Source: Ignavibacteriota bacterium (GTDB lineage Bacteria > Bacteroidota > Ignavibacteria > Ignavibacteriales > Melioribacteraceae). From it: DNA of 64,000 bases. Below the pieces are notes generated by a model that ran no database searches, was not told the origin of the DNA, and saw only the letters and a list, made by a program, of their open reading frames with translations. This document shows, piece by piece, positions 8,404 through 27,338 of the stretch. A program made the position numbers and the translations under genes. Each line of letters starts with the position of its first letter. Position 1 is the first letter of the stretch. Location of the stretch: the NCBI GenBank assembly GCA_002698995.1, contig PAAX01000012.1, forward strand, positions 62,001 through 126,000. Reading direction: 5' to 3'.

Positions 8404-8438
8404 AAAGACAATTAGGAATTAATAATTAAGAATTAGGA

Positions 8439-8783
8439 ATGAAAAAGAATATTATACAAGAAAAAAGTTTTGAGTTTGCACTTGAAGTTATTCGTCTTTA
8501 TAAACAATTAAAAAATCAAAACGAACACGTTATCTCAAAGCAACTTCTTAGATCGGGGACAAGCATTGGTGCTAATGTGGAAGAGGCAATAGGAGCTCAA
8601 TCAAAAAAGGATTTCATCAACAAGATGAGTGTGGCTTACAAAGAATCAAGAGAGACTCATTATTGGCTTAGATTAATTAAAGAAAGTAATTTACCAGACG
8701 GAGACTTTAACAAATATTTAGAAAAAGCAGAGGAACTCAACAAAATAATTTCCTCTATTTTGAAAACTTCGAAAGAGAATTAG
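8439..8783 (+). CDS. Four-helix bundle protein (23S rRNA intervening-sequence protein family), copy A
   Basis: The 114-residue product is helical throughout, with the family's landmark segments: SKQLLRSGTSIGANVEEA, where S-G-x-S-I-G-A-N starts the second helix, and SRETHYWLRLIKES. Relatives are encoded inside intervening sequences of 23S rRNA in Leptospira and Coxiella, and distant kin (Avd) assist diversity-generating retroelements; the molecular role of the free-standing form is unknown. It forms pentameric helical bundles in known structures. The gene sits 35 bases after mnmE, and its stop codon abuts a parS site. A paralogue with the same motifs is encoded at 25965-26315. Confidence 0.88.
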   Translation: MKKNIIQEKSFEFALEVIRLYKQLKNQNEHVISKQLLRSGTSIGANVEEAIGAQSKKDFINKMSVAYKESRETHYWLRLIKESNLPDGDFNKYLEKAEELNKIISSILKTSKEN

Positions 8784-8799
8784 TGTTTCACGTGAAACT
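8784..8799. promoter_or_regulatory. parS centromere site 1 (ParB binding)
   Basis: TGTTTCACGTGAAACT contains the perfect 14-base palindrome GTTTCACGTGAAAC and matches the parS consensus TGTTNCACGTGAAACA at all but the last base. It begins at the base after the four-helix-bundle stop codon. parS sites cluster near the replication origin and are bound by ParB for chromosome segregation. Confidence 0.88.
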
Positions 8800-8850
8800 A
8801 AGTCAAAAAATAATTCTTAATTCTTCATTCTTAATTTTTAATTGAAGAAG

Positions 8851-8866
8851 GGTTTCACGTGAAACA
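8851..8866. promoter_or_regulatory. parS centromere site 2 (ParB binding)
   Basis: GGTTTCACGTGAAACA has the same 14-base palindromic core as site 1, with only the first consensus base different. The centres of the two sites are 67 bases apart, and this one ends 39 bases before the chosen mnmG start. Neither parA nor parB lies in the window. Confidence 0.88.
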
Positions 8867-24766: not shown

Positions 24767-25900
24767 TTAAAATCCCTTTTTTAAAGCAAAATCGAGATCA
24801 GACTTTATCATAATTTCAATCAATTGATTTAGCTCGGTTTTAGGTTCCCACCCAAGCTTTTCTTTTGCTTTTTTCGGATCACCAATTAGAAGTTCAACTT
24901 CAGTCGGTCTGTAATAACCTGGTGAAACCTCAACAATTACATCCCCTTCTTTTAGATTAATATTTTTGCTGGAAAAATTATTAGCATAATTTGAAGATTT
25001 AAGAAGAGAATCAAATTTTTCAATATCAACTGATTTAATAATTCCGTTTTCGTTTTCTTCTTCACCGTGCCATTCAATATTAACACCCAGATTCATAAAA
25101 CTTTCAGCTACAAAATCTCTAACGGTATTTGTTTTGCCGGTAGCTAAAACAAAATCTTCCGGAGTATCATGCTGTAAAATTCTCCACATTCCTTCACAGT
25201 ATTCCGGTGCATATCCCCAGTCTCTTTTTGCATTTAGATTTCCAAGAGTTAACTTGTCCTGCATTCCCAAAACAATTCTGGTTGCTGCTCTTGTAATTTT
25301 TCTGGTTACAAAAGTTTCTCCTCTTCTTGGTGATTCATGATTAAACAGTATTCCGTTACATGCAAAAATATTATATGCTTCTCTATAATTTACAATAATC
25401 CAATAAGCATAAAGCTTCGCAACTCCATACGGAGAGCGGGGATAAAAAGGAGTAGTTTCTGTTTGAGGAACCTCCTGAACTTTCCCGTAAAGTTCTGATG
25501 TTGAAGCTTGGTAGAATTTTGTCTGCTTGCCAAGACCGGTTTCTCTAATGGCATCTAAAAATCTTAATGTACCAAGGGCATCAACTTGTGCTGTGTAATC
25601 CGGTACTTCAAAAGAGACTTTTACATGAGATTGTGCGGCAAGATTATAAATTTCATCCGGTTCAATTTTTTCCAGCAGTCTGTTTAAGTTGCTTGTATCA
25701 ACAACATCACCATGATGAAGAAATAAAGATTTACCTTGAATATCGGGATTTCTATAAAGATGATCAATTCTCTGTGTATTGAATGAACTGCTTCTTCTAA
25801 TTATACCATGAACTTCGTAACCTTTTTCCAAAAGAATTTCGGTTAGATAACTTCCATCTTGCCCGGTAATACCGGTTATTAGTACTTTCTTTTTTGACAT
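24767..25900 (-). CDS. gmd: GDP-mannose 4,6-dehydratase
   Basis: The product (about 377 residues) has the NADP-binding motif [28 protein letters not shown], the catalytic YxxxK as YGVAK within [15 protein letters not shown], and [12 protein letters not shown]. It converts GDP-mannose to the GDP-4-keto-6-deoxy intermediate, which the product of fcl turns into GDP-L-fucose. I use the ATG at 25900; the upstream TTG at 25912 lacks a good ribosome binding site. The gene is separated from fcl by a second four-helix-bundle gene, an unusual split for a pair that is normally adjacent. Confidence 0.97.
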
Positions 25901-25913
25901 GTGCAATTCCAAA

Positions 25914-26384
25914 TTAAAAATGAAAAATTAAAAAACAATTTTAAAAATTTAATGTAAGACATAATTATTGAATACTTTTTGATACCCTAGAACTTATAGA
26001 TCCAAGAATTTTTTTTAATTCCTCGGATTCAGAAATTAATAAATCCAACTCTTCAGAGTGAGATGAGACAGCCTTTATAATTTTTAACCAATAATTAGAT
26101 TCTCGCATTTCCTTTAATGAAATTTTTATTTTATTTCTAAAATCCAATTTTGAGGATGCAGCTTGTGCTTCTTCATAATTTGCCCCACTTGATGTTGCGG
26201 ATTTTGTTAATTGGTATTTTATTACATCGTATTCTTTTCCATCTGATAAAGTGCGAGTTAATAATATTACCTTAACAGAAAAATTAAATAGTCTTTGACC
26301 TAATCCCTTATCCATTAAAATTACCAAGTCCTTTTAGATTTAATAATAAACCAAGCATTCAAGTACTTTTTAATTTTTAATTTG
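25914..26384. mobile_element. Candidate intervening-sequence-like element (copy B) between fcl and gmd
   Basis: The four-helix-bundle gene is flanked on the minus strand by ACAAATTAAAAATTAAAAAG just after the fcl stop and by TTTTTAATTTTTCATTTTT just before the gmd start. These are near-exact inverted repeats apart from a short insertion. The design matches copy A at about 8409-8849. Low complexity makes the exact ends uncertain. Confidence 0.35.
25965..26315 (-). CDS. Four-helix bundle protein (23S rRNA intervening-sequence protein family), copy B
   Basis: The 116-residue product shares with copy A the segment TKSATSSGANYEEAQAASS and SLKEMRESNYWLKIIK, so it is the same family but clearly diverged (different spacing residues and C-terminus SISSRVSKSIQ), not a recent duplicate. 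I chose the ATG at 26315; a TTG at 26327 would follow too closely on the AAGGA motif. The protein should be an all-helical oligomer; its role is unknown. It interrupts the fcl-gmd pair in the same orientation as those genes. Confidence 0.87.
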   Translation of the reverse strand: MDKGLGQRLFNFSVKVILLTRTLSDGKEYDVIKYQLTKSATSSGANYEEAQAASSKLDFRNKIKISLKEMRESNYWLKIIKAVSSHSEELDLLISESEELKKILGSISSRVSKSIQ

Positions 26385-27338
26385 TCATTTGTAATTTTCC
26401 AAAAACCATTCGTATGTTTTCTTTATTCCCTCTTCAAGATTTGTTTTATGCTTCCAGCCCAGATTGTTTATTCTACTTACATCCATCAATTTTCTTGGAG
26501 TGCCGTCGGGTTTTGTTGAATCATAAATTATGCTTCCTTCAAATCCAACTATTTTTTTGATTGTATCTGCTAATTCGCTAATTGTAAGATCTTCTCCGGT
26601 TCCAACATTCAATTGAGAAATTTCGAGATCATATAATGATTTTGCCTCAATGTTCTCTAAAGTGAATTTTACTGCTTCCGCTAAATCATCAACAAATAAA
26701 AATTCTCTCTTTGGAGAGCCTGTTCCCCAAATTGTAACGGATTCGGAATCGGAAGTTTTAGCTTCATGAAATTTTCTAATTAATGCCGGGAGAACGTGAG
26801 ATGTCTGCAGATTAAAATTATCATTAAATCCATATAGATTAGTAGGCATTAACGATAGAAAATTTGAGCCATATTGTTTATAATAACTTTCGCAGAGTTT
26901 TATTCCAGCAATTTTTGCAATTGCGTATGGCTCGTTCGTGTATTCTAAATAATCACTTAAAAGATATTCCTCTTTAAGCGGCTGAGGAGCCAGCTTTGGA
27001 TAAATGCATGAGCTTCCTAAAAAGATTACTTTCTTAGCATTATTCAAATGAGAAGCATGAATAAGATTAGCTTCAATCATTAAATTATCATAAAGGAATT
27101 CGGCTCGATATGTATTGTTTGCTAAAATACCGCCAACTTTAGCCGCGGCAATTATTACAACTTCCGGCTTCTCATTTTCAAAAAAACTATTAACTTCAGA
27201 TTGGTTTCTTAAATCCAGTTCTTCTAAAGATTTTGTAACAATATTGTTATAACCGGACTTAGTTAACTCTCTAAAAATAGCAGAACCAACCATTCCATTA
27301 TGTCCCGCTAAATAAATTTTCTTCGAATTCCAGTTCAC
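26385..27338 (-). CDS. fcl: GDP-L-fucose synthase
   Basis: The 317-residue product has the opening [13 protein letters not shown] (Rossmann motif), [16 protein letters not shown], the catalytic YAIAK (Tyr and Lys) and the C-terminal [16 protein letters not shown], all typical of GDP-4-keto-6-deoxy-D-mannose 3,5-epimerase-4-reductase. It uses NADPH to make GDP-L-fucose for surface polysaccharide or glycoprotein synthesis. Gmd is encoded 0.5 kb downstream on the same strand. A SAM methyltransferase gene precedes it by 53 bases, so it may be part of a longer minus-strand unit. Confidence 0.97.

Follow-up and report, generated by a model that had tools for sequence, protein, structure and literature searches.

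The question raised by this locus is what the small open reading frame (ORF) that separates fcl from gmd is, and how it came to stand there. In the analyzed stretch of DNA, 64,000 nt long and hereafter called the window, the two enzyme genes and the ORF between them all lie on the minus strand, so that the ORF is in the sense of its host genes, as claimed initially. The initial annotation had read positions 25914-26384 as an intervening-sequence-like element (copy B), a diverged homologue of another one (copy A) in the same window. The features of the locus are the following:

26385..27338, minus strand: fcl, GDP-L-fucose synthase, upstream neighbor (ORF list and profile match)
26367..26396, minus strand: copy B 5' arm, tandem heptamers, holds the fcl stop codon (inverted-repeat alignment)
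25965..26315, minus strand: copy B four-helix-bundle (4HB, IVP family) ORF, in-frame ATG start, 116 aa
25965-26327, minus strand: copy B ORF with TTG start (ORF list)
25905..25934, minus strand: copy B 3' arm, matching the inverted 5' arm at 26/30 positions (inverted-repeat alignment)
24767..25900, minus strand: gmd, GDP-mannose 4,6-dehydratase, downstream neighbor (profile match; ATG start picked by eye)

The copy B protein scored above the cut-off against both PF05635 (8.1e-15) and TIGR02436 (9.7e-22) in profile searches and is, judged by these models, a member of the 23S-rRNA-intervening-sequence protein family. Its AlphaFold2 model, built from an alignment of copies A and B alone, consists of four helices (mean pLDDT 89.3). 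The best solved structures retrieved by Foldseek, 2rld (E 1e-5) and 2gsc, both belong to the same family, and the Avd protein encoded in the Bordetella phage retroelement comes next (E 0.018). The neighbors were matched in profile searches by TIGR01472 (gmd, 1e-170) and NF047922 (fcl, 7.6e-147, with 488.7 bits against a model cut-off of 500). The site of copy B is between these two genes and not inside any 23S rRNA gene. The 4HB gene is the only gene of the copy B unit, in which no other ORF of at least 80 aa and no transposase, recombinase, or endonuclease gene was found.

The ORF is enclosed by two inverted arms of 30 nt each that are built of 7-nt units and share 86.7% identity (lag-7 self-match 0.83). 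As read from the sequence, the fcl stop codon (26385-26387) falls inside the 5' arm, and the gmd ATG lies 4 nt from the end of the 3' arm. With a PF05635/TIGR02436 protein between inverted arms, the intervening-sequence-like character of the element was largely borne out. The inverted flanks proved real, although the arms reach beyond the limits first given, to 25905 and 26396; the arms in the window are also AT-rich, as described, but the rule turned out to be the 7-nt period and not AT-richness. Copy B resembles the intervening sequences (IVSs) of rRNA in this anatomy and in its protein. On balance, copy B probably represents one insertion of a small mobile element that consists of a heptamer 5' arm, a 4HB gene, and the same heptamers inverted as a 3' arm.

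The homology between copies A and B was upheld, their proteins being 42% identical. Copy A has the same layout on the opposite strand:

8410..8446, plus strand: copy A 5' arm (alignments 8410-8435 and 8417-8446, overlapping)
8439..8783, plus strand: copy A, four-helix-bundle ORF between mnmE and mnmG (ORF list, profile match)
8811..8843, plus strand: copy A 3' arm (alignments 8811-8836 and 8814-8843)

Inverted repeats no more than 900 bp apart were sought across the 64-kb window. Of the 11 returned, 6 have arms of period 7 or 8, and these all belong to copies A and B. Five block shuffles of the window gave 6 inverted-repeat matches in total, one of them with period 7 or 8. Two exact GTTTCACGTGAAAC palindromes, which we take to be parS-like, were also observed between mnmE and mnmG (window positions 8785-8798 and 8852-8865; none in 100 shuffles), the former placed between the copy A stop codon and the copy A 3' arm.

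Inverted Heptamer Arms across the Protein Family

The 302 4HB matches listed were reduced to 250 full-length non-redundant copies by removal of 52 partial or duplicate ones, a set that leans to high-scoring matches among those listed. Arms, the limits of which are those of local alignments, were scored in 244 copies, the remaining 6 lacking 150-nt flanks. Across these 244 copies among the matches listed, the median score of the own 5'/3' pair was 27, versus 16 for flanks of different copies. The own-arm score exceeded the 95% point of the mismatched pairs in 147 copies and the 99% point in 95, and was not above the 95% point in 97; the same scoring in direct orientation placed 35 and 16 copies above the two points, respectively. 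In the genomes of the same bacterial family, the own 5'/3' score beat shuffles at p < 0.01 in 46 of 81 copies and at p < 0.05 in 59.

The arms consist of tandem repeats, the period of which is mostly 7. In the 95 strongest 5' arms, self-match reached 0.60 for lag 7 and 0.59 for lag 14 and ranged from 0.25 to 0.35 for the other lags between 3 and 16. Among arms of at least 20 nt, the best lag was 7 in 70/91 and 8 in 16/91. The 95 strongest-arm copies have 71 different most-frequent repeat units. The repeat unit varies from copy to copy, yet both arms of one copy match. Common structure in the flanks of other copies, which the initial annotation had led us to expect, was found in the form of matched inverted heptamer arms with sequences that differ between copies.

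Lag-7 arrays were counted by distance from the 4HB gene in 81 sources (80 loci and the window). Less than 60 nt from the gene, 11.1 kb of sequence contained 21 arrays (1.89 per kb); the zone from 60 to 120 nt contained 14 (11.0 kb), that from 0.8 to 1.5 kb contained 13 (107 kb), and that from 1.5 to 4 kb contained 10 (337 kb, 0.03 per kb). Lag 8 was weakly raised close to the gene, and the remaining tested lags from 4 to 12 were not raised. Small GIY-YIG genes were considered as carriers of the same heptamer arms and rejected: in a control set of 23 such genes the lag-7 values were 0.284 and 0.285 and no heptamer arms were found, while 3 of the 23 had other strong inverted flanks.

That an AT-rich spacer surrounds an ordinary gene by chance is hardly credible. 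The composition of the arms in the window would suit such an account, but it is refuted by the mismatched-pair controls and also conflicts with the window repeat search, the location of arrays near 4HB genes, the GIY-YIG control, and the period of all 13 plasmid copies described below.

A template for the arms inside the ORF was also considered and is unconvincing, since sharing of arm k-mers with the own ORF was only somewhat above that with other ORFs (k = 9, 22/95 vs. 16%; k = 11, 8/95 vs. 1.8%; k = 12, 1/95 vs. 0.4%); the excess at k = 11 may come from arms that run into the ORF ends. The own distal flanks (250-1500 nt) were richer in arm k-mers (mean of 1.28 vs. 0.08 at k = 12), which are perhaps neighboring or leftover arrays.

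Distribution and Recurrence

The proposal of a recurrent element type, made initially from copies A and B, is borne out by the distribution of the gene. The genome that carries the window has 10 4HB matches, two of which are halves of one broken gene, and at least one 4HB gene is present in 55 of 57 genomes of the same family and in 75 of 99 genomes of the phylum. Matches were also found in two phage records and in 27 plasmid records, 13 of which were read (from Cyanobacteriota, Chloroflexota, Spirochaetota, Bacillota, and Bacteroidota). In 13/13 plasmid copies, lag 7 scored highest among lags 5-9 on each side of the gene, and the own-arm score exceeded the 95% point of mismatched pairs in 9 (three of them Planktothrix orthologs), the remaining four scoring 21-25. 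Plasmid 4HB genes (L324-L336) were often observed inside defense operons, namely DISARM, CRISPR (cas2-cas1), and restriction operons, the occupied junctions being drmD/methylase, cas2/cas1, and hsdS/hsdR.

Among 38 relatives, a 4HB gene occupies the gmd-fcl pair in five (G007, G010, G012, G014, and G071; in G014 further DNA lies between the 4HB gene and gmd). In eight others (G013, G016, G060, G063, G064, G068, G070, and G072) the gmd and fcl matches are 8-56 nt apart, a gap too small to hold a 4HB gene, and the remaining 25 have a larger gap, genes that lie apart, or no match. The copy B protein is 54% identical to its counterpart in G071, which has the same arm type, and 16-29% identical to those in the other four, and the order of the two enzyme genes is reversed in G007. 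Because of the low identities and the reversed order, several gmd-fcl insertions look independent, and the pair seems, by these comparisons, to have been entered several times.

Gain, Loss, and Replacement of Elements

Three gains were read, two against close relatives (flanks 83-94% identical) and one against more distant ones (73-82%). Most comparisons were made in the genus g77, where G096, G106, and G120 are 80-94% identical at element sites (mostly about 90%) and G130 is 72-79% identical. Four copies found only in G106 were searched, of which two were usable, L231 and L239; the other three genomes have short spacers at both sites, 43 nt in G096 and G120 and about 120 nt in G130 at the L231 site, and 63 nt in G096 and G120 and 13 nt in G130 at the L239 site. 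In both cases the insert has displaced the old spacer largely or completely. L226 was dropped as a gain because no homologous left flank was found in G096, G120, or G130, and L237 because 12-14 kb separates its flanks in G096 and G120.

A gain was also read at cas2-cas1 on Nostoc plasmids. Where no element is present, the two genes are 2 nt apart or overlap; where one is present, it runs antisense to both and has replaced roughly 60 nt at the 3' end of cas1. No target-site duplication was visible by eye at L231, L239, or cas2-cas1, which are few events at diverged sites. The element-free spacer, also as read by eye, holds a hairpin in three cases, at L231, at L239, and at the DISARM-like L330 in comparison with L339/L340, a number too small to support a general statement.

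Losses and replacements were observed as well. The L253 element, also present in G130, is absent from G106 and G120, a pattern that is loss or replacement rather than gain. In g77, one copy has disappeared from G096, and another carries an internal deletion in G106. At several sites the 4HB copy is vertically stable. At three sites with flanks 82-93% identical the element is swapped: the replacing 4HB protein is 51-68% identical, compared with 96.6-96.8% between the 4HB proteins of the two unswapped genomes. Part of the older 3' arm seems to be retained at the swap site beside a gene read by eye as recN. Arm-ORF-arm units are gained, lost, and swapped in place between relatives.

Two gene-free spacers deserve separate mention. 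The L253 site of G106 and G120 (L318, L319) is a 60-nt spacer with heptamer-like units of another type, and the L239 site of G096 and G120 is a gene-free spacer with hairpin sequence of other type; the sequences at both sites look as if they had been left by earlier elements.

The claim that the copies did not arise by recent duplication held. No near-identical copies at different sites and no donor copy were found, identity reaching at most 86% among pairs without detected flank homology, so that no event of recent transposition inside a single genome came to light. The gains could represent horizontal acquisition or recombination with other strains.

Orientation, Selection, and Co-inheritance of Arms and Protein

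Both neighbors, defined as long ORFs and not as trained gene calls (they may include another 4HB gene), were present for 239 copies, the other 11 lacking one side; after 4 copies with a gap of more than 600 bp were left out, 235 were counted. The expectation of invariably co-directional neighbors failed: among these copies from the matches listed, 199/235 are in sense with both neighbors, 20 with the downstream one only, 4 with the upstream one only, and 12 with neither. Co-directional spacers hold 199 sense versus 12 antisense 4HB copies, and 429 of 557 other adjacent gene pairs in the same loci are co-directional. For the 127 arm-bearing sense/sense copies, the distance from the upstream stop codon to the start of the 5' arm has a median of 2 nt (quartiles -4 and 11), and in 93 of them the arm lies no more than 10 nt from that codon or overlaps it. 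Selection against broken neighbors would account for part of this pattern of orientation and placement.

The 4HB protein is under purifying selection, with dN/dS between 0.00 and 0.31 in 14 of 17 ortholog comparisons; the other three gave no value, one for want of synonymous changes and two, at swapped sites, because dS was saturated. Arm type and protein are inherited together. In pairs that have no homologous neighbor protein within 2.5 kb, similar 5' arms were found in 0.2-0.5% of those below 50% protein identity, in 3.5% at 50-60%, in 12% at 60-70% (238 pairs), and in 6/20 at 70-80%, shares that would be raised by any distant orthology missed by the neighbor test. For the 30-40, 40-50, and 50-60% bins, 1500 pairs each were drawn at random from 6704, 9928, and 2111, respectively.

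The low dN/dS in the 14 comparisons and the vertical stability at several sites would also be expected of a useful operon gene, that is, of a host-beneficial 4HB factor spread horizontally as a cassette, with the arms being regulatory hairpins or leftover recombination seams. We regard this account as improbable, since it fits poorly with copy-specific matched arms of many unrelated sequences, with an arm type that follows the protein at unrelated sites, and with swaps at the same site.

Maintenance of Arm Matching

The arms might be kept matched as ends of DNA or as a stem of RNA. In the latter case they would pair in the host transcript, RNase III would cut the stem and free the 4HB message from the operon mRNA, and selection on the stem would preserve the match. 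This plan equals that of the Coxiella IVS, which is an RNase III substrate (PMC4990558), and the sense bias of 199 to 12 is consistent with it, as are some concerted arm changes. The cleanest case of the latter is L212/L217, where proteins 96.7% identical are accompanied by 4 concerted and 3 single arm changes.

Other evidence points away from the RNA. Arm mismatches in 180 copies comprise 206 of G-U type versus 238 of A-C type (p 0.14), a comparison that has no positive control; the lack of a G-U excess favors DNA ends over a selected RNA stem. Single-sided changes in the 55 related pairs with arms outnumber concerted ones (334 vs. 77 columns), even though alignment of the arms on complementarity favors the concerted class; this count comes from overlapping pairs and leaves out 24 of 79 related pairs with an arm score below 24. 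Finally, the cas2-cas1 copies are antisense. Maintenance through an RNA stem therefore appears unlikely, and these observations weakly suggest that arm matching is maintained at the DNA level.

Comparison with Known Systems

The closest parallel is provided by the IVSs of 23S rRNA, which have been known for more than 25 years and the function and origin of which were described as unclear as of 2016 (PMC4990558). The IVS of Coxiella burnetii is 428 nt long, contains an S23p ORF, and has a terminal stem of 28 bp interrupted by a single mismatch and a bulge; GACAGAT heptamers repeated in tandem precede its start codon (PMC4990558). The 23S rRNA IVSs of Coxiella, Leptospira, and others share with the copies analyzed here the protein family, the length of 400-500 nt, and the terminal inverted repeats, and the Coxiella IVS shares in addition the tandem heptamers before the ORF and the sense orientation (PMC4990558). 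Unlike them, the present copies, which are known from DNA sequence alone, lie between protein genes and not in an rRNA helix; being outside rRNA, they are not classed as rRNA IVSs but as a variant of that kind. The accessible text of the Coxiella account states neither a period-7 rule for both arms nor copy-specific repeat types (PMC4990558). IVP ORFs have also been reported in rRNA inserts of CPR bacteria (PMC11270868). A literature search, in which subscription journals and preprints were thinly covered, returned no description of paired heptamer arms around a PF05635 gene.

Intergenic 7-nt tandem repeats are familiar from the cyanobacterial STRR. Intergenic heptamer arrays such as those of the SPADE survey and the TAACTGA arrays resemble the arms in their 7-nt tandem units, but the arms form inverted pairs around one gene family, whereas the TAACTGA arrays have been reported, with a single exception, as direct repeats (PMC4679880). 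Insertion sequences and MITEs resemble the copies in having terminal inverted repeats and in being discrete units that are gained and lost; they differ in that the present units contain no transposase, show no target-site duplication by eye at the few diverged sites read, and have ends that vary between copies. Homing endonuclease elements differ too, since the units here contain the 4HB gene only and GIY-YIG genes have different flanks.

The structural match of copy B to the four-helix bundle of DGR Avd, together with a PF05635-Avd relation noted in PMC10053308, invites the explanation that an Avd-like protein and a reverse transcriptase acting in trans copy and insert the unit. No reverse transcriptase lies beside the copies read, however, and the bAvd profile gave 19.5 bits for copy A (cut-off 40) and no match for copy B. 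Because 8 of the 13 genomes with at least 10 4HB matches, including G106 with its two read gains, have no RVT_1 match, a reverse transcriptase is unlikely as an obligate partner. The genome analyzed here has one RVT_1 match, on contig C31, and the window is on contig C17. Retro-mobility of this kind is very improbable.

Proposed Mechanism

The preferred reading of copy B, as the insertion of a small mobile element, can be put as a series of steps. The unit would enter gene junctions, mostly in sense and close behind the upstream stop codon, and the host operon would express the inserted 4HB gene. Insertion would replace or trim the old spacer with no target-site duplication seen. The arms would serve as DNA ends that are inherited with the protein lineage and may drift into different repeat types while the match between the two arms of any one copy tends to persist. 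We infer that the Avd-like 4HB protein most likely recognizes and binds the heptamer repeats, that the arms act as recombination ends, and that the chemistry of cutting and joining is probably performed by host or trans-acting enzymes. Some results weigh against this reading: the unit encodes no recombinase, 97 of the 244 copies stay below the 95% arm point and 16 pass the 99% point in direct orientation, the cas2-cas1 insertions are antisense, and one-sided arm changes are more numerous than concerted ones. The element would be of the same sort as the ORF-bearing 23S rRNA IVSs, and these would be those members of a mostly intergenic family that are carried in rRNA genes.

A bolder proposal, possible but rather doubtful, is that of a mobile element class without a known recombinase and with rewritable ends. 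The arms would change in concert, either by arm-to-arm copying or by addition of one repeat, telomerase-like, to both 3' ends of a linear intermediate, and the 4HB protein would read the repeat of its own lineage. Such elements would be the source of much bacterial intergenic heptamer DNA, with rRNA IVSs as a special case.

The IVS protein family proves to be common between ordinary genes, where it forms part of a unit that obeys a simple rule, namely tandem heptamers that are inverted, matched within a copy, and different between copies. This rule is a searchable signature and a concrete lead on the intergenic heptamer periodicity for which the SPADE survey gave no clue (PMC6344855). The function of PF05635 becomes directly testable by asking whether each protein binds its own repeat, and a heptamer-armed unit could account for small insertions within operons of the CRISPR, DISARM, and restriction types.

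Additional Observations

Several observations concern GIY-YIG genes. At L008 (C26:2892-3342 of the own genome), the C-terminal portion of a 4HB gene comes immediately after a GIY-YIG gene. Orphan small GIY-YIG genes (L293, L308, L289, L309, L306, L284, L302, L300, and L311) often adjoin a tRNA gene, which was detected by ARAGORN in 9 of the 13 loci scanned, and in several of these loci the tRNA 3' end is repeated, as judged by eye, on the far side of the gene. What looks like RNase P RNA is present at the L288 GIY-YIG locus. The tRNA-adjoining GIY-YIG genes may constitute a second mobile gene class, one that restores its own target.

In several g77 elements (L222, L228, L225, L246, L247, L250, and orthologs), a GTAAGGAATT...GTCTTAC stretch, presumably ECF-sigma-promoter-like, was noticed by eye upstream of the ORF, and in L225, L245, and L246 it appears inside the arms.
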